From positions 62,001 through 126,000 of the forward strand of contig MEDJ01000021.1 of the NCBI GenBank assembly GCA_001724025.1: 64,000 nt of DNA. The letters run 5' to 3'. Of this stretch, positions 29,180-48,576 are shown in pieces. The notes beneath the pieces were generated by a model. It did not search any database and had not been told where the DNA came from. It saw nothing but the letters and a program-made list of their open reading frames with translations. The number at the start of each line of letters is the position of its first letter. The stretch's first letter is position 1. Made by a program: the position numbers and the translations under genes. This stretch comes from Acidobacteria bacterium SCN 69-37 (GTDB lineage: Bacteria; Acidobacteriota; Vicinamibacteria; Vicinamibacterales; SCN-69-37).

Positions 29180-29442
29180 AAAATTCCGGACCGAGAATCC
29201 CGGTCGCCGTGGATCGACAGACCGGTCGCTGTGGATCGACAAACCGGTAACACCCCGTCGCGATCCCGGTCGCTGTGGATCGCATTCCCGGTCGCCGTGG
29301 TTTGTCACCGACGTGGCGCGCCGCGAATTCCCGGTCGCTGCGGATCGAGAGACCGGTCGCCGTGGATCGCGATCCCGGTCGCACCGGTACCGCGCGGCGC
29401 TGACGCGGTTCGAAGAGGTGGTGGCAGTGGATCGAATGCTGG
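29180..29442. repeat. 22-bp tandem repeat array 2
   Basis: Units of 22 bp (one of 21) start at 29202, 29224, 29246, 29268, 29290, 29312, 29333, 29355 and 29377, consensus GGTCGC(C/T)GTGGATCG followed by seven variable bases ending CC. Weaker units precede 29202 and follow 29399. Units 29202, 29224, 29268 and 29355 are nearly identical over the first 15 bases. Same period as array 1, about 40 bp away, but a different consensus; its reverse complement shares a TCGATCC core with array 1. Confidence 0.8.
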
Positions 29443-32514: not shown

Positions 32515-32757
32515 CCCGGCCGTTGCATTCGGAGCCCCGAGGCTTCAGCCTCGGGGAGACGCCCCGCATCCCCTGGGGCTGAAGCCCCAGGGCTCCGACC
32601 TTGGAGGGACACCCCCGGGGCTCCGATCGCCCCTGGCCGTTGCAACCGGAGCCCCGAGACTTCAGCCTCGGGGAGACATGCCGCATCCCCCTGGGGCTGA
32701 AGCCCCAGGGCTCCGACCTGGGAGGGGACATCCCCAGGGCTCCGACCTTGGGTAGCC
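32515..32757. repeat. tandemly duplicated ~115-120-bp palindrome cassette
   Basis: Two direct copies (about 32515-32632 and 32633-32757), each holding GCCGTTGCA-, then a CCCCGAGGCT/AGCCTCGGGG-type hairpin (32535-32556; imperfect at 32652-32673), then a CCCTGGGGCT/AGCCCCAGGG hairpin (32571-32592; 32689-32710), then GGCTCCGACCT and a third partial half-palindrome. Lies between divergent genes (DUF1080 and TPR protein) and shares its hairpins with single copies elsewhere in the window. Confidence 0.8.
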
Positions 32758-33600: not shown

Positions 33601-36600
33601 ATGAACGATACTGCGGAGCCCCTCGTCTCGCGCCCCCGATGGCGATGGCTGCGGCGCCTGGCCGTCGGGGGCTTCGTGTGCGTGATCGCACTCGTCGCGA
33701 TCGTGCACCTGCCCGTCGTGCGCGGCGCGATCCTCGCGCGTGTCATCACCTCGCTGCAGGCGCAGGGCATCCGGCTGCAGGCCGACAGACTCGCCTACAA
33801 CCTCGCCACGCTCGACGTGACGCTCGAGGGCGTCACCGTCGCGGCCGAGGGCATCGATCCGCCATTCCTGACGCTGGATGCCGTGCGCGTGAACCTGCCG
33901 TGGTCGATCGTGTCCGGCACCATCCACATCGAGTCGGCCGAGGTGACGCGGCCCCGCGTCACGATCGTGCGCGACGCCACCGGCGCGCTGAACCTGCCCG
34001 ATTTCGGCGGCGACGACGACAGCCGTCCGTTCGAGGGACCGGTGCTCATCGACCGTCTGCTGGTGAGCGACCTGGCCGTGCGCTACGAGGATGCGACGAA
34101 CGCCCAGCAGTTCGACCTGCGCGGCGCCACGCTCGACATGACGGCGGGCGCGACGACGCCGCTGGCCGGGACGCTGACCGTGCGCGAACCGGCCACGCTG
34201 CAGATCGGGGATCGCACCACGACCATCAGCCGGCTGGCGTCCAGCCTGACGTTCAACGGGGTCACCATCGGGCTCGATCCGCTCGAGGCCGAGGCCACCG
34301 AAGGACGCGTGCGCATCAGCGGCACCGTCGACGCGTTCGGGGCCGATCCGGATCTGCGGCTCGACTACACGGTCCGCGCCGACGCCACGGGCGCCGCGGC
34401 CTGGCTGCCCGTGACGCCGGCGCCAACAGGCACCGTCGTCGTGGACGGCACGATGTCGGGCGACCGCACGGCCCCGGACGTGGCGTTCGACATCACCACC
34501 GACGCGCTGGCGTGGTCGACGCTGGGCCCGATCGACGTGGGCGGGCGCGGCACGTTTGCCGGCACGGTCGTGGCGCTCGACACGCTCCGGGTCGACGTGG
34601 CGGGCGGCACGCTGACGGCCACCGGACGCGTCGACGTCGACGACGACGGATCGTCCGCGGTGGACGCGCGCTGGACCAACCTCGACCTGGCGCGCCTGCT
34701 GGCCGAGGTGCCCGCCGCCACGGTGCGGCCCGGGGCGATCTCGGACGGATCGCTGACCATGGACTGGACGGGCACGGACGTGCTCGGCGGCCGCATCACG
34801 GCGACGACCCGGCAGCGGGCGCTCGGCGCGCGCCAGAATCTCGTGCCGCTGGCCGGCCGGATCGATCTTGCCAGTCGCGCGCGGCAGTGGACGCTCACCG
34901 GAACGCCGCGCGTGGCCGATGCCATCGACGCGACGGTGCGGGCGACGGGACGGCTGGCCGACGATCTGGCGCAGGCGCCGCTCGCGGGCACCGTCGACAT
35001 CACGGTGGCGGACCTGGCCGCGGCCCTCACCCAGCTCGAGGCCACGGGTCTCGTGCCAGACCTCGGGGACGACACGTCGACGGGCGGTGCCGTCACTGTG
35101 GCGCTCACGCTTGGCGGCACGCTCGCGGTGCCGCGCGCCGCGGGGACGATCGACGGGCAGGCGCTTCGCGTCCAGGGCACGGGACCGGCCACGCTGGCCG
35201 CGCGCGTCGACGCGTCGACGCGCGTCGTGCAGATCGATGACCTGCGTCTCGAACTGGCGACCAATCAGGTGACCGGCCAGGCGACGATCGGGATCGAGGC
35301 CAACACGATCGCCGGCGTCCTCGAGGCGACCCTGCCCGACATCGCGGCGGCGGCCGCGGCCCTCCCCGAGGCCTGGCGGCCGGACGGGGCGGCCACGGTC
35401 TCGGCGACGATCGGCGGCGCGCTCGACAACCCGACCGCCGACCTGCGGATCGCCACGAGCCGGCCGCTCGAAGTGGCCGGCCAGACCATCGATGCGATCA
35501 CTTCCGACGTCCGCGTCGTCAATCGCGTGGCCATCATCGATGCGCTGACGCTCACGCAGCAGGAGGGACAGCTGACCGCGTCGGGTCAGTACGCGTTCGA
35601 CGGCGGCCGCTACACCTTCGACGCGAACGCCACAGGGCTCGTCGTCAATCCCATCATCACGGCTGATGCCGTGGCGTCCCCCGGGGCTGAAGCCCCGGGG
35701 CTCCGAACACCCGCCGCCGCGCAGCCCACCGCCGCGCCGCCTGCCACCATCCCCGTCCACACGCGGATCGACCTCGAGCTGACGGGCAGCGGCACTGTCG
35801 ATGCGCCGCAGGCCAGCGGACAGGTGCGGCTGGCCGACGTGGCCTGGGGCGCGTATCAGATCGGCGCGGCCACGGCCGACGTGGCGGTCGCCGACGGACA
35901 GGCCCACGTCACGGCCACGGTGCCATCCATCAGCGGCCTGGTCGACGCCACGGTCGCGCTCGACTCGCGCCGGCTCACGGCCACCGCCACCATCGACAAC
36001 GCCGAACTCGCCGCGCTCGCGCGCGTCACGGGTCCGGCAGGCCCCGTCACTGATCCTGATGACGCGGACGCGGAGCCCGCCACCGGCGACAGCGCGTCGC
36101 CGCGCACGATCCCGCTGACGGGCACCATCGGCCTCACGGCCGCGGTCGAGGGCGGTCTCGACGACCTCGCCAGCCTGGACGTCACGGCCGGGGTCACCCT
36201 GCGCGATGCCACCGTCAATGGCCTGCCCGTGCGCGCGACGCGGCCGGTGCGCGTGCGGCACACGGCCGGCACGGTCGAGGCCGAGGACGTCGAACTGTTC
36301 ATCGGCGATGCGCGCCTGACCGCACGCGGCCGGCTCGGCACCGACGCGCCCGCTGGCGACGGGCTGGCTGTGGAACTCGTGGGCACGCTGGCCGACTTCG
36401 CGCCGCTCGCACGCCTGGCCCCCGGGTTCGAGGACGCGACGATGGCCGGCAACCTCGAGCTGAACCTGCTCGCGTCGGGTCCCCTGGACGCGCCGGACGT
36501 GACGGCGTACCTCACCGTCACCGACGGCGAGGTGGGCATGGCCGACCTGCCGCCCGCCAGCAATGTCACGCTGGCCGCCACCTACACGGCCGGGATGGTG

Positions 36601-39600
36601 AACGTCAGCGCGATTGGCGCGCACTGGCAGGACGCGGATCTGCTCGCCCTCGGCTACCTGCCGCTGTCGCTGCTCGGCGACGCGATCCCGGCGGCCTACC
36701 GCGCGACGCTGCCGCCCGCGCTCGGCCCGGCGCGCTTCGACGTCCGGCTGTACGGCCTGAGTCCGGAGGCCCTTCGTCCGTTCCTCGATGCCGACTCGGT
36801 GGCGCAGATCACCGGCCAGGTCGATCTCACCGCCGATGTCGAGGCCACGGCCTTCGATCTCGACAGCGTGCGCGCCGAGGTGCGGCTCGATCGCGCCGAC
36901 GTGGAGCTGGCGCGCGTGCCGCTCGCGCAGACCCAGCCGACGCGCCTGCGCCTGGCCAACAGGCGGCTCGACGTGGTCGAGTGGCACTGGGCCGGCACCG
37001 GCAACGAGTTCTCCGTCCGCGGCCACGTGCAGCTCGACGACGCCGCGACCACGCTCGATCTCGGGGTCATGGGATCGCTCGACCTGCGCATGATCAGCGC
37101 GTTCGCGCCCGGCATGGCCACGCGCGGACGCGCGAACCTCGACGTCACCGCCACCGGCGACGCGACCGATCCGGAGCTGGCGGGCACCGTCTCGCTCGAG
37201 GAGACGGACATCATCGTGCGCGACCCGCGCGTGGCCATCACCGACATGACCGGCACCGCGCGCCTGTCGCACAACCGCGTGACGCTCGAGGGGCTGACGG
37301 CCAACGCCAACGGCGGCACGGTGTCGATCATCGGCGACCTGGACTACAGCGACTTCGCGCTCGAGCAGGGCGCTATCACGGTGACCGGGCGCGGCCTGGC
37401 GATCGAGGCGGTCGACGGGCTGCGCACGGAACTGAACGCGGACCTGACGGTGGCCATGGCCAAGGGCGAACCGACGATCGGCGGCCGCGTGACCGTGGTG
37501 CGCGGCGATTACCGCCAGCCGCTGCGCCTGACCGAGCAGCTCTTCTCGACGCTCGAGATGCAGACATCGGGCCCCGGCGCCACAGACGATGGGATGATGA
37601 GCCGGCTGCAGCTCGACCTCACCATCGTCTCGGCCGAGGACATCGTCGTCGACAACAACTACGGCCAGCTCGAGGTGGGGACCAACCTGCGCGTCACCGG
37701 CACGCCGGCGTCTCCGATCCTCGGCGGGCGGCTCGCCCTGCGCGAGGGCGGCGAAATCTTCCTGGGCGGACAGACCTACACGCTGCAGCGCGGGACCATC
37801 GACTTCACGAACGCGACGCGCATCGAGCCGAACTTCGACATCGCGCTCGAAACGCGCGTGCGCAACTACGACATCACGCTCGAACTCTCCGGCACGCCCG
37901 ACGCGCTCGAGGTGGGACTGCGGGGACCGAGCATCACGCAGCAGGACGCGATCTCGCTGCTGCTCACCGGCCAGCTGGCCGAGGACAGCACGACGGCCTA
38001 CTCCGAGGTGGCGCGGGGCCAGCTGCTCATGTTGCTCTCGGGCGAGCTGCTGAGCACGGCCGGACGCGCCGTGGGGCTCGACTCGGTGCAGGTCAGCCGC
38101 GGCCTGGGTGGGGCCGCGTCGACGTTCGACCTGCTGGCCACCGACTCGGATCCCGAGGCGCGACTGACGCTGGCCAAGAACCTCAGCCGCGAGCTCGAGC
38201 TGATCATGTCGCAGAGCCTGCGCAACACGGGCGACATCACGTGGATTGCCGTCTATCGGCCGGTGCGGCGCATCGAACTGCGCGCGGCCACCGACGACGC
38301 GAGCCGCGAGACGTACGAGTTCCGACACGAGATCCAGTTCGGGGGCGCGCCGGGCGCGGCGGCGAACGGACCGACGCGCCGGGTCGATCCGCGCATCTCG
38401 GGCATCTTCATCGAGGGCGCGCCGGGCATCCCCAACAGCGAGTTGATGAATCAGATGCGGCTCGGCGTCGGCGATCGCTTCGACTACTTCGACTGGCAGC
38501 GGGACCGCGATCGCCTGGCCGCGTTCTACCAGTCGCGCGGCTTCCTGGAAGCGCGCATCGCCCCGCGGCGCGAGCCGTCGGCCGATGGGCAGCAGATGGC
38601 GCTGACGTACAACATCCGCCAGGGCCCGCGCACGACGCTCCGCGTCGAGGGATTCACGCTGTCACGAGCCACGACGGCAGAGATCGAAGACGCCTGGTCG
38701 CAGTCGGTGTTCGACGGCTTCCTCGAAGACGACGCCGAGCGGATCGTGCAGCGCGCGCTGGTGCGGGCGCGCCATCTGCAGGGCACCGTCGACGCGTCGA
38801 TGTCGACCGACGCGGACGGCGCGAACAAGACGCTGACGATCGCGATCGCCCCCGGCCCGGAATCCACCACGCGCCGGATCGACTTCACGGGCAACAAGGC
38901 CCTGTCGACCAGCGAGCTGCGATCGGCTGTCGACGCGCAGAACGGCACCGTGGCCGTCTGGCTCGAACGGGACGCGATCGAGACGACGCTCGCGGCGCTC
39001 TATCGATCGCGCGGATATCTCAGCGCCGACGTGACGGTGAGCGCACCGCGCTTCGAGAACGGCACGGCCGTGCTGCCGGTCCGGATCGACGAAGGGCCGG
39101 CGTATCGCCTCGGCACGATCGGCGTCAGCGGCGCGGCATTCCGCACGGCCGATGCCGTGCGCCAGGTGACCGGCCTGCAGTCGGGCACCCCGTATCTGCC
39201 CGGCGAGGTCGAGCCCGCGCGCCGGCGCGTGGAGGTCGACTACCTCGGCGCCGGGTACAACACCGTCAGCGTGTCGACCATTGTCGGCATCGACGAGGAT
39301 CGCGCCGTGGCCGACGTCGTCTTTGCCGTGGCCGAGGGTCCGCAGCAGATACTGCAGGACGTGACGGTCAGCGGCACGCGCGTGACGTCCGACGGGACGA
39401 TCGACCGCGCGCTCCGGCTCGACATGGGCAAACCGCTCGACATGAGCGATGTCTATGCGGCGCAGAAGCGGCTTTACGACACGAGCGTGTTCCAGCGCGT
39501 GGACGTCGAGGTGGAGCCGATCGAAGGCGCCGAGGCGGCGCCGGGCACGCAGCCGGTGCGGGCAGTGGTCGGCCTCCAGGAGATGCCGCGCTTCCGGTTC

Positions 39601-40599
39601 CGCTACGGCTTCCGCATCAGCGACTCTCCGGGCCCGGCCGAGGAGAGCCATCAGATCCGTCCCGGACTGGTCTCCGATTTCCTGAACCGCAACCTGTTCG
39701 GCCGTGCGATTGCCGCGGGCGTGGCGGGCCAGCTCGAGTCCGACCGCTATCTCGCGCGCGGCATCCTGTCGCTGCCCACGCCCTTCCGCCTGCCGCTGAC
39801 GACGAACGTGTTCCTGACCTGGTCGCGTCAGACGATCGGGGAAGACGCGGACGACATCACGCCGTACGTCAAGCAGGCACGCGAGCTGACGTTCGAGCAG
39901 CGCATGCGACCGGCGCGGACCATGTCGGTGTCGTGGGGTTACACCTACGGCCGCACGCACGAATACCTGCTCACGCCCGATCCCTTCACCGACTTCGACG
40001 AGATTACCTACGTCGCGCGGCTGACGGGCACGTACGCGTGGGACACGCGCGACGACCCGTCGAACGCGACGCGCGGCTGGTTCCACTCGTCCGGTCTCGA
40101 GTACGCGCCGGGCCGGCTCGGATCGAACCTGAAGTTCGTGCGGTACCTTGCGCAGCAGTACTACTTCCACACGCTGGGGGAACACGTCACCCTGGCGTCT
40201 GCGCTGCGCGTCGGACTCGGACGCGGCTTCGGACAGGACCTCCCGTCGACCGAGCGGTTCTACACGGGCGGCGGCACGAGCGTGCGCGGGTTCGCCGAAG
40301 AGGCCATCGGCGGCCGCGATTTCTTCGGCTTCCTCATCGGCGGCGCCAGCCTGTTCCAGTTCAACCAGGAAGTGCGCTTCCCGATCTTCCGCTGGGTCCG
40401 CGGCGTGGGATTCTTCGACACCGGCAACATCTTCCCCACGATCCGCGATCTCTCGTTGACCACGCTCGAACGCGGCGCCGGCCTCGGCCTGCGCATCCAG
40501 TCGCCGTTCGCGATCATCCGCGTCGACTACGGCATCCCGCTCTCGAACCGCCAGAACGAACGCGCGCGGTGGTACTTCGGGATCGGGCAGACGTTCTAG
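33601..40599 (+). CDS. single-chain TAM: TamB (AsmA-like/DUF490) fused to POTRA and Omp85 beta-barrel
   Basis: 2,332 residues without a frame break. One N-terminal membrane anchor (residues ~20-42, LAVGGFVCVIALVAIVHLP). Residues ~45-1580 are the repetitive beta-helix of TamB, ending in the conserved TamB C-terminal domain (GRRV-TVVRGDYRQPLRLTE; GLRGPSITQQDAISLLLTGQ; WIAVYRPVRRIEL). Residues ~1595-1990 contain several POTRA-type repeats (e.g. RIDFTGNKALSTSELR; GTIGVSGAAFRTADAVRQ; TVSGTRVTSDGTIDRALRL). The rest is a 16-strand-type Omp85 barrel with the L6 motif GGGTSVRGFAEEAIGG (VRGF near residue 2228) and a terminal aromatic (GIGQTF). In Proteobacteria TamB (inner-membrane anchored) and TamA (outer membrane) are separate proteins; here one chain would span the envelope. 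A dispersed palindrome is inserted in frame at residues ~693-700. Confidence 0.93.
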   Translation: MNDTAEPLVSRPRWRWLRRLAVGGFVCVIALVAIVHLPVVRGAILARVITSLQAQGIRLQADRLAYNLATLDVTLEGVTVAAEGIDPPFLTLDAVRVNLPWSIVSGTIHIESAEVTRPRVTIVRDATGALNLPDFGGDDDSRPFEGPVLIDRLLVSDLAVRYEDATNAQQFDLRGATLDMTAGATTPLAGTLTVREPATLQIGDRTTTISRLASSLTFNGVTIGLDPLEAEATEGRVRISGTVDAFGADPDLRLDYTVRADATGAAAWLPVTPAPTGTVVVDGTMSGDRTAPDVAFDITTDALAWSTLGPIDVGGRGTFAGTVVALDTLRVDVAGGTLTATGRVDVDDDGSSAVDARWTNLDLARLLAEVPAATVRPGAISDGSLTMDWTGTDVLGGRITATTRQRALGARQNLVPLAGRIDLASRARQWTLTGTPRVADAIDATVRATGRLADDLAQAPLAGTVDITVADLAAALTQLEATGLVPDLGDDTSTGGAVTVALTLGGTLAVPRAAGTIDGQALRVQGTGPATLAARVDASTRVVQIDDLRLELATNQVTGQATIGIEANTIAGVLEATLPDIAAAAAALPEAWRPDGAATVSATIGGALDNPTADLRIATSRPLEVAGQTIDAITSDVRVVNRVAIIDALTLTQQEGQLTASGQYAFDGGRYTFDANATGLVVNPIITADAVASPGAEAPGLRTPAAAQPTAAPPATIPVHTRIDLELTGSGTVDAPQASGQVRLADVAWGAYQIGAATADVAVADGQAHVTATVPSISGLVDATVALDSRRLTATATIDNAELAALARVTGPAGPVTDPDDADAEPATGDSASPRTIPLTGTIGLTAAVEGGLDDLASLDVTAGVTLRDATVNGLPVRATRPVRVRHTAGTVEAEDVELFIGDARLTARGRLGTDAPAGDGLAVELVGTLADFAPLARLAPGFEDATMAGNLELNLLASGPLDAPDVTAYLTVTDGEVGMADLPPASNVTLAATYTAGMVNVSAIGAHWQDADLLALGYLPLSLLGDAIPAAYRATLPPALGPARFDVRLYGLSPEALRPFLDADSVAQITGQVDLTADVEATAFDLDSVRAEVRLDRADVELARVPLAQTQPTRLRLANRRLDVVEWHWAGTGNEFSVRGHVQLDDAATTLDLGVMGSLDLRMISAFAPGMATRGRANLDVTATGDATDPELAGTVSLEETDIIVRDPRVAITDMTGTARLSHNRVTLEGLTANANGGTVSIIGDLDYSDFALEQGAITVTGRGLAIEAVDGLRTELNADLTVAMAKGEPTIGGRVTVVRGDYRQPLRLTEQLFSTLEMQTSGPGATDDGMMSRLQLDLTIVSAEDIVVDNNYGQLEVGTNLRVTGTPASPILGGRLALREGGEIFLGGQTYTLQRGTIDFTNATRIEPNFDIALETRVRNYDITLELSGTPDALEVGLRGPSITQQDAISLLLTGQLAEDSTTAYSEVARGQLLMLLSGELLSTAGRAVGLDSVQVSRGLGGAASTFDLLATDSDPEARLTLAKNLSRELELIMSQSLRNTGDITWIAVYRPVRRIELRAATDDASRETYEFRHEIQFGGAPGAAANGPTRRVDPRISGIFIEGAPGIPNSELMNQMRLGVGDRFDYFDWQRDRDRLAAFYQSRGFLEARIAPRREPSADGQQMALTYNIRQGPRTTLRVEGFTLSRATTAEIEDAWSQSVFDGFLEDDAERIVQRALVRARHLQGTVDASMSTDADGANKTLTIAIAPGPESTTRRIDFTGNKALSTSELRSAVDAQNGTVAVWLERDAIETTLAALYRSRGYLSADVTVSAPRFENGTAVLPVRIDEGPAYRLGTIGVSGAAFRTADAVRQVTGLQSGTPYLPGEVEPARRRVEVDYLGAGYNTVSVSTIVGIDEDRAVADVVFAVAEGPQQILQDVTVSGTRVTSDGTIDRALRLDMGKPLDMSDVYAAQKRLYDTSVFQRVDVEVEPIEGAEAAPGTQPVRAVVGLQEMPRFRFRYGFRISDSPGPAEESHQIRPGLVSDFLNRNLFGRAIAAGVAGQLESDRYLARGILSLPTPFRLPLTTNVFLTWSRQTIGEDADDITPYVKQARELTFEQRMRPARTMSVSWGYTYGRTHEYLLTPDPFTDFDEITYVARLTGTYAWDTRDDPSNATRGWFHSSGLEYAPGRLGSNLKFVRYLAQQYYFHTLGEHVTLASALRVGLGRGFGQDLPSTERFYTGGGTSVRGFAEEAIGGRDFFGFLIGGASLFQFNQEVRFPIFRWVRGVGFFDTGNIFPTIRDLSLTTLERGAGLGLRIQSPFAIIRVDYGIPLSNRQNERARWYFGIGQTF
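35679..35700. repeat. in-frame palindrome CCCCGGGGCT-GA-AGCCCCGGGG
   Basis: Ten-base perfect arms inside the TamB part of the fusion gene, translated as ASPGAEAPGLR. Next to it the protein has a Pro/Ala-rich stretch (TPAAAQPTAAPPATIPVH) not seen elsewhere in the beta-helix, suggesting an insertion tolerated in a loop. Confidence 0.8.
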
Positions 40600-40672
40600 G
40601 GAGGCGGGGAGGCTGCAGGCGGGAAGGAGACTGGGAGGCGGGAAGGGCGGAAGGCGGGAAGGCTCTTCGGAG

Positions 40673-40694
40673 CCCTGGGGCTTCAGCCCCAGGG
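40673..40694. repeat. CCCTGGGGCT-TC-AGCCCCAGGG palindrome
   Basis: Ten-base perfect arms between the convergent fusion gene and the MscS gene, following a purine-rich stretch of GGGAGGC/GGGAAGGC stutters (40602-40670). It may serve as a two-way terminator; the same palindrome recurs at 32571, 32689 and 48436. Confidence 0.75.
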
Positions 40695-48280: not shown

Positions 48281-48576
48281 CAGGTACGACAGGTACGACC
48301 GGTACGACAGGCGACAGGTGGGGCCCCCGCGCATTCCTCCCGGGGGCCCATCCAATCTCAGAGATCTCAGACGCGGGCGGGCAGCGAGCTGCGAAACGCC
48401 GTTGGGATTGACGGGATTGAATGGATCAGATGGAGCCCTGGGGCTTCAGCCCCAGGGGGTGATCCCCGAGGCTGAAGCCTCGGGGCTCCGGCGGCCCGCG
48501 CCGCCCGCCGCCCGTACCTGATTGAACCGGCCCCGAGAGGGGCCGCACCTGTCGCCCGTCGTACCCGTCGTACCTG
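48281..48576. repeat. compound repeat cassette with inverted arms and three hairpins
   Basis: Outer arms: CAGGTACGACAGGTACGACC... (48281-48320) is inverted at 48547-48576 (...CGTCGTACCCGTCGTACCTG). Inside lie a GGGCCCCCG/CGGGGGCCC hairpin (48321-48329 with 48341-48349), a CCCTGGGGCT/AGCCCCAGGG palindrome (48436-48457) and a CCCCGAGGCT/AGCCTCGGGG palindrome (48464-48485). Fills the 325-bp gap between the small membrane protein and the hybrid kinase; no gene. The first hairpin probably terminates the upstream gene. Confidence 0.7.

Follow-up and report, generated by a model that had tools for sequence, protein, structure and literature searches.

Is the 22-bp palindrome inside a TamB-like gene of Acidobacteria bacterium SCN 69-37 an ancestral part of the protein, or did a dispersed element enter the gene in frame and become coding sequence? 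A preliminary description of this DNA had proposed the second. Here, the window denotes the whole 64 000-nt stretch that was analyzed. We consider it highly probable that the palindrome belongs to a RAYT-associated REP family and that this copy entered a loop of an AsmA/TamB–Omp85 protein without disturbing the frame.

The host gene and the REP unit

The features of the locus are collected in Table 1. The host, called TamB-like in the preliminary description, has a TamB domain, and the POTRA and Omp85 domains, which it had missed, are found in the same ORF. TamB and its Omp85 partner are thus fused in one frame of 2332 aa, and frames of 2200–2430 aa occur in many orthologues of the order. In the same genome, contig C10 carries a TamB-like frame of 1385 aa and, apart from it, an Omp85 frame of 1179 aa. 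A literature search for a TamB/Omp85 fusion gave no obvious report among the papers listed.

The host ORF is unbroken and its Omp85 domain match reaches the last residue. The codon bias across the TamB-gene REP is coding-like in one frame on both sides (0.29 and 0.49), the highest of the tested copies, with the host gene excluded from training of the codon model. These properties, together with the 2200–2430-aa frames of the orthologues, argue against a decaying pseudogene or a misassembly in which the REP only seems to be coding. Such a reading would fit the extragenic position of nearly all other REP copies and the lack of the gene segment in 13 of 13 other genomes of the genus and family; we regard it as extremely improbable.

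Read from position 35673, the codons GCG TCC CCC GGG GCT GAA GCC CCG GGG CTC CGA encode ASPGAEAPGLR in the frame of the host ORF, and a Pro/Ala-rich stretch follows; both the position and the peptide agree exactly with those first described. As RNA, the palindrome forms a 9-bp hairpin of about −21 kcal/mol on either strand, and folding of the 121 nt around it is somewhat more stable than that of shuffled sequences (z −1.84). On the plus strand CTCC directly follows the palindrome, so that the minus strand reads GGAG and then the hairpin. The conserved GGAG stands on one side only; therefore, the real element spans at least 35679–35704 on the minus strand. The palindrome taken as the unit in the preliminary description is exact, and what was overlooked is the one-sided GGAG that makes it part of a larger, asymmetric element. 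The extended REP is matched with 100% identity over 35 nt in one locus (L201) and 33 nt in another (L055). As to whether the Pro/Ala-rich segment belongs to the element, the flank beyond the REP can be aligned for a few bases at most; the one exception is L235, where a weak match of 36 nt continues into CCGCCGCC. Inspection of the 26-mer shows a stop codon in a single frame, CCC CGG GGC TGA; the other five of the six are open. The TamB-gene copy is single, with no head-to-head partner within 150 nt, i.e. no REPIN.

A small hairpin, CACGGC-TGAT-GCCGTG at 35659–35674, adjoins the REP and lies mostly within the inserted segment. It was considered as a decayed partner REP and rejected, as the GGAG head is missing and the search for a partner within 150 nt gave none; it is probably due to chance.

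Table 1. Host gene, REP elements and inserted segment, in window coordinates.
Feature	Position	Strand	Remarks
Host gene, 2332-aa ORF	33601..40599	+	DUF748/AsmA-like, TamB, POTRA and Omp85 domains
22-bp palindrome	35679..35700	no strand	exact match CCCCGGGGCTGAAGCCCCGGGG; 10-bp arms, central GA
REP unit, GGAG + hairpin, GGAGCCCCGGGGCTTCAGCCCCGGGG	35679..35704	-	same 26-mer as 37 other genome copies
Extended REP: TTCG head, GAG, palindrome, GAC tail	35676..35707	-	fits commonest genome-wide flanks
Approximate in-frame insertion ADAVASPGAEAPGLRTPAAAQPTAAPPA, 28 aa	35662..35745	+	versus nearest orthologue L123; edges alignment-dependent
REP pair, intergenic, head-to-head, REPIN-like, 14-nt gap	32531..32596		same family as TamB-gene REP
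Second intergenic REP pair, 15-nt gap	32648..32714		same family as TamB-gene REP
Single REP, intergenic, downstream of host gene	40669..40694	+	
REP pair, intergenic, 6-nt gap	48432..48489		

The REP family and its RAYT gene

The window contains eight copies of the palindrome with up to three mismatches, compared with 0.01 expected in dinucleotide shuffles. The other seven score as non-coding. Genome-wide, 298 GGAG-headed copies exist (159 forward and 139 reverse, GGAG itself being part of the search pattern; the reversed control pattern gives 0). The commonest exact variants are the CCCTGGGG type (104 copies), the CCCCGAGG type (91) and the CCCCGGGG type of the TamB-gene copy itself (38). These counts bear on the possibility that the segment is an ancestral Pro/Ala linker that is palindromic by chance. 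One orthologue (L122) does carry its own shorter Pro/Ala linker (AAPGAASPAP) at the site, and high-GC codons for Pro, Ala and Gly yield CCC/GGG runs. However, the identity of the 26-mer to 37 other copies refutes this origin for the REP part, the Pro/Ala part aside; by chance a window should hold only about 0.01 matches of this kind, and the non-palindromic flank (TTCGGAG head and GAC tail) is also present. We therefore judge an ancestral linker very improbable.

Flanks were obtained for 278 of the 298 copies, and the other 20 were left out of the tests. GGAG is preceded by C in 265 of the 278 and does not recur on the other side of the hairpin. Counted back from the first G of GGAG and including it, the four-base head is TTCG in 75 copies, GTCG in 60, TCCG in 26 and CTCG in 24; hence 135 of 278 copies have a TTCG or GTCG head, and not GTAG. 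A head-to-head inverted partner lies within 150 nt of 113 of the 278. Among 161 genomes of the order, eight contain the GGAG REP in its CCCNGGGG form, with 147 copies in the genome of the window and at most six in any other, so the expansion of the REP is lineage-specific. The window also holds, at 29198–29382, a tandem array with a 22-nt unit, TCCCGGTCGCCGTGGATCGACA, and a conserved core, GTGGATCG.

The genome has one Y1_Tnp gene, which scores 106.7 bits with the NCBIfam model of the REP-associated tyrosine transposase (cut-off 80). Five GGAG REPs (C1:290033, 290104, 290748, 290820 and 290851) surround its conserved domain (C1:290286–290594), none more than about 300 nt away. Taken from the first ATG, the RAYT ORF (L049:4608–5540, minus strand) has 310 aa, of which about 150 at the N-terminus come from reading across REPs (e.g. 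GAPRLQPRGVSLGLKPQGSG); translation probably begins further downstream than this ATG. The closest named relatives of this RAYT are in Acidobacteria MAGs. GTAG-type heads mark the hairpins at several of the named MAG loci that encode related RAYTs, and one locus, L261 (isolate Ww335), has the same TTCGGAGCCCCGGG type as the window's genome. The RAYT of L261 is 50% identical and is flanked by TTCGGAGCCCCGGGTCTTCAGACCCGGGG; GGAGCCCCGGGTCTTCAGACCCGGGG also occurs as a minor variant in the genome of the window, and the dominant stem variant differs.

The family shows the features of RAYT–REP systems in the broad sense: a dispersed palindrome of 20–40 nt in high copy number, a one-sided head, inverted pairs (BIME/REPIN), a mainly extragenic location and a REP-flanked RAYT. 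Among the four heads counted above, only GTCG fits the GTAG superfamily pattern (GTAG; degenerate GYAG, GYRG, GTRG and GTMG), through GTMG; thus, we do not file the family in the GTAG superfamily of PMC3733652. It also differs from the CGTC superfamily and the Rickettsia RPEs (CGTC head, no linked tyrosine transposase), since the head is another and a RAYT is present. The family is a RAYT–REP with an altered head, TTCG/GTCG-GAG instead of the classical GTAG. A REP with a cognate RAYT gene fits the mobile or copied element first suspected. The single RAYT of the genome, or a recent ancestor of it, would be the likely mover, recognizing the hairpin and the head and copying or moving the REP unit, and the TamB-gene copy may have been mobilized in this way. 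Among the points against this main reading, the TamB-gene copy is a single REP, which may not be mobile, the head of the family is not GTAG, and the comparison below includes no close orthologue with an empty site.

Genic copies, orthologues and the predicted loop

To classify the copies we used a codon model trained on 16 ORFs of the window, in which a copy is intragenic if the frame is open and coding-like (score >0) on both sides. With 150-bp flanks, 5 of 278 copies are intragenic at >0 and three at >0.1, compared with 61 and 56%, respectively, of 2000 positions drawn at random from the 58 longer loci of the same set. With 90-bp flanks, nine of 278 pass 0 compared with 67% of random positions. 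The count of copies inside and between genes that had been suggested as a check thus agrees with a dispersed, mainly intergenic family. Purifying selection would remove most genic REP insertions.

Besides the host-gene copy, those that score as intragenic comprise a pair of REPs lying in frame in L186, which encodes a PMT-family glycosyltransferase, one in L196 (no Pfam family) and one in L181. The last scores >0 in a repeat-laden ORF with no Pfam match and was left out as a sure gene. This ORF (G000:C18:41713–43020) has at least 380 aa, mostly repeated REP-derived peptides (SLGLKPQGSDGREPLQGSDG...). In L098, another REP copy closes the reading frame of an IPP-transferase (MiaA-like) gene.

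An ABC ATPase (L086) is a second case of a REP wholly within the ORF of a recognizable protein and absent in relatives. Its insert of roughly 45–50 aa, SPGAEAPGLREEGDVSRQADLNGAPRLRQDGDKSPQADPDGAPGLRPRGD, includes SPGAEAPGLR, identical to the decapeptide of the TamB gene. It is absent in 23 of 23 aligned relatives, including the locus of the same-genus genome G001; the G001 protein has a short, different insertion at this site and its last residues align poorly. After the L086 insert, the protein returns in frame to its conserved C-terminal LEDVF..LT motif. The score of this copy is −0.11 when the flanks are 150 bp long and 0.05 when they are 210 bp long, because the insert itself fills the flank. 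It scored low despite being genic by homology, so the number of intragenic copies given above is a minimum.

The orthologues of the host protein were then compared. A 600-aa segment is matched in 72 of 162 genomes of the order, in some through shorter, separate TamB-like frames. We searched 47 loci and aligned 27 orthologues, which are 24–40% identical to the window over the segment; eight duplicate loci, matches with E >1e-17 and matches ending before query residue 330 were dropped beforehand. Among the last are L019 and L021, whose alignments lack about 100 residues at the site and next to it. The insertion is absent in 26 of the 27 orthologues and the flanking beta-strands align on both sides, as the preliminary description had predicted for close relatives. 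No match to the segment was found in the 13 same-genus and same-family genomes, and thus no close orthologue with an empty site, or in a scan of named genomes; the 13 do hold less similar TamB/Omp85 proteins. As there is no close orthologue, the gap is visible only against proteins of 24–40% identity.

The exception is L129 (G068:C104:13188–13210), which has an unrelated insert in the same linker, containing a palindrome with an 11-bp stem, GCTTCGGCGAG-G-CTCGCCGAAGC. Of the 161 genomes, 12 contain palindromes of this type, GCTTCGGCGAG-N-CTCGCCGAAGC, with at most eight copies each, and the genome of the window has none; in G068, the L129 insert holds the only exact copy. The orthologue in G034 (L021, G034:C156:4359–4381) has an L129-type palindrome in frame at another position in the protein. 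A clean insertion was considered for G034 and rejected, as the alignment with the same-genus G024 (49% identical) is messy; we claim only its in-frame location. From the RAYT–REP of the window, the G068 insert with GCTTCGGCGAGGCTCGCCGAAGC (a palindrome that is scattered through other genomes of the order) at the same linker and the same palindrome elsewhere in the G034 protein, one could propose that AsmA/TamB-type loops are recurrent capture sites, where unrelated palindrome families become coding independently across lineages. We regard this proposal as speculative and rather unlikely.

An AlphaFold2 model (28-row alignment) has a mean pLDDT of 86.1, with values below 50 at residues 1–11, 293–302 and 415–417. 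The REP-coded residues are 293–302, between the modelled strands 270–282 and 319–332. The insert is thus predicted to be a disordered loop in a long beta-sheet protein. The model contains a second low-confidence loop at about 36034–36105 (residues 412–435 of the modelled segment) in the PAGPVTDPDDADAEPATGD region; it has no REP and is absent from most orthologues in the alignment displayed.

The predicted loop also bears on whether the insertion was selected, either as an mRNA hairpin or protein-binding site tuning translation or decay of a very long message or as a peptide with a job. The copy is perfect, with no mutations, and the stable hairpin (about −21 kcal/mol) and the fold of the surrounding 121 nt (z −1.84) would suit such a role. 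However, a recent neutral insertion accounts for the perfection equally well, 26 of 27 orthologues manage without the insert and the loop is predicted to be unstructured; hence, we find a selected insertion improbable. In the preferred reading, an in-frame copy of the RAYT–REP family, the insertion would survive because the frame is kept (five of six frames are free of stops) and the site is a turn between beta-strands. The roughly 28 extra Pro/Ala/Gly-rich residues would form a disordered loop, for which we infer both neutrality and the age of the insertion. The REP-coded loop is probably harmless.

Relation to known elements and significance

According to PMC3733652, REPs are mostly intergenic, with a variable number wholly within ORFs of known proteins. 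More than half of these intragenic inserts are dimers or grouped repeats encoding 20–30 aa, and the RPEs of R. conorii are in frame; the paper suggests that flexible linkers or loops could take up such inserts neutrally. The present family resembles these intragenic REPs in being short, RAYT-linked palindromes that are mostly intergenic with some inside ORFs. It differs in the head (GTAG there, TTCG/GTCG-GAG here) and in the target: the proteins named there are DNA-repair, tRNA-related and others, with no TamB or Omp85 protein among those named in the sections covered. The Rickettsia palindromic elements, as described in the same paper, are likewise palindromic repeats in frame in likely functional proteins; unlike the present family, they have a CGTC head, and according to that paper no transposase is linked to repeats with this head, whereas here another head is accompanied by a RAYT. 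The REPs of Haemophilus influenzae and Thioalkalivibrio, in the part of PMC2817692 considered, share the TTCA centre and a one-sided head (GTAGGGTGGGCTTcAGCCCACC; GTAGGTCGGCCTTCAGGCCGAC), but have a GTAG head and other stem letters. Among the papers listed in a literature search, none was a closer report than PMC3733652.

Since intragenic REPs are already in print (PMC3733652), current ideas are unchanged. The TamB-gene REP is a clear new example of a phenomenon known in other bacteria, and the additions made here are the altered head, the recurrence of the peptide in another gene and, in one orthologue, a palindrome inserted independently at the linker in question. It provides a clean, checkable case in which a selfish DNA hairpin became coding sequence in a conserved protein of the outer-membrane-biogenesis type, and it shows where REP insertions are tolerated, in turns between beta-strands. 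If the capture-site proposal were true, palindrome families would be a steady supply of new disordered loops in envelope proteins.
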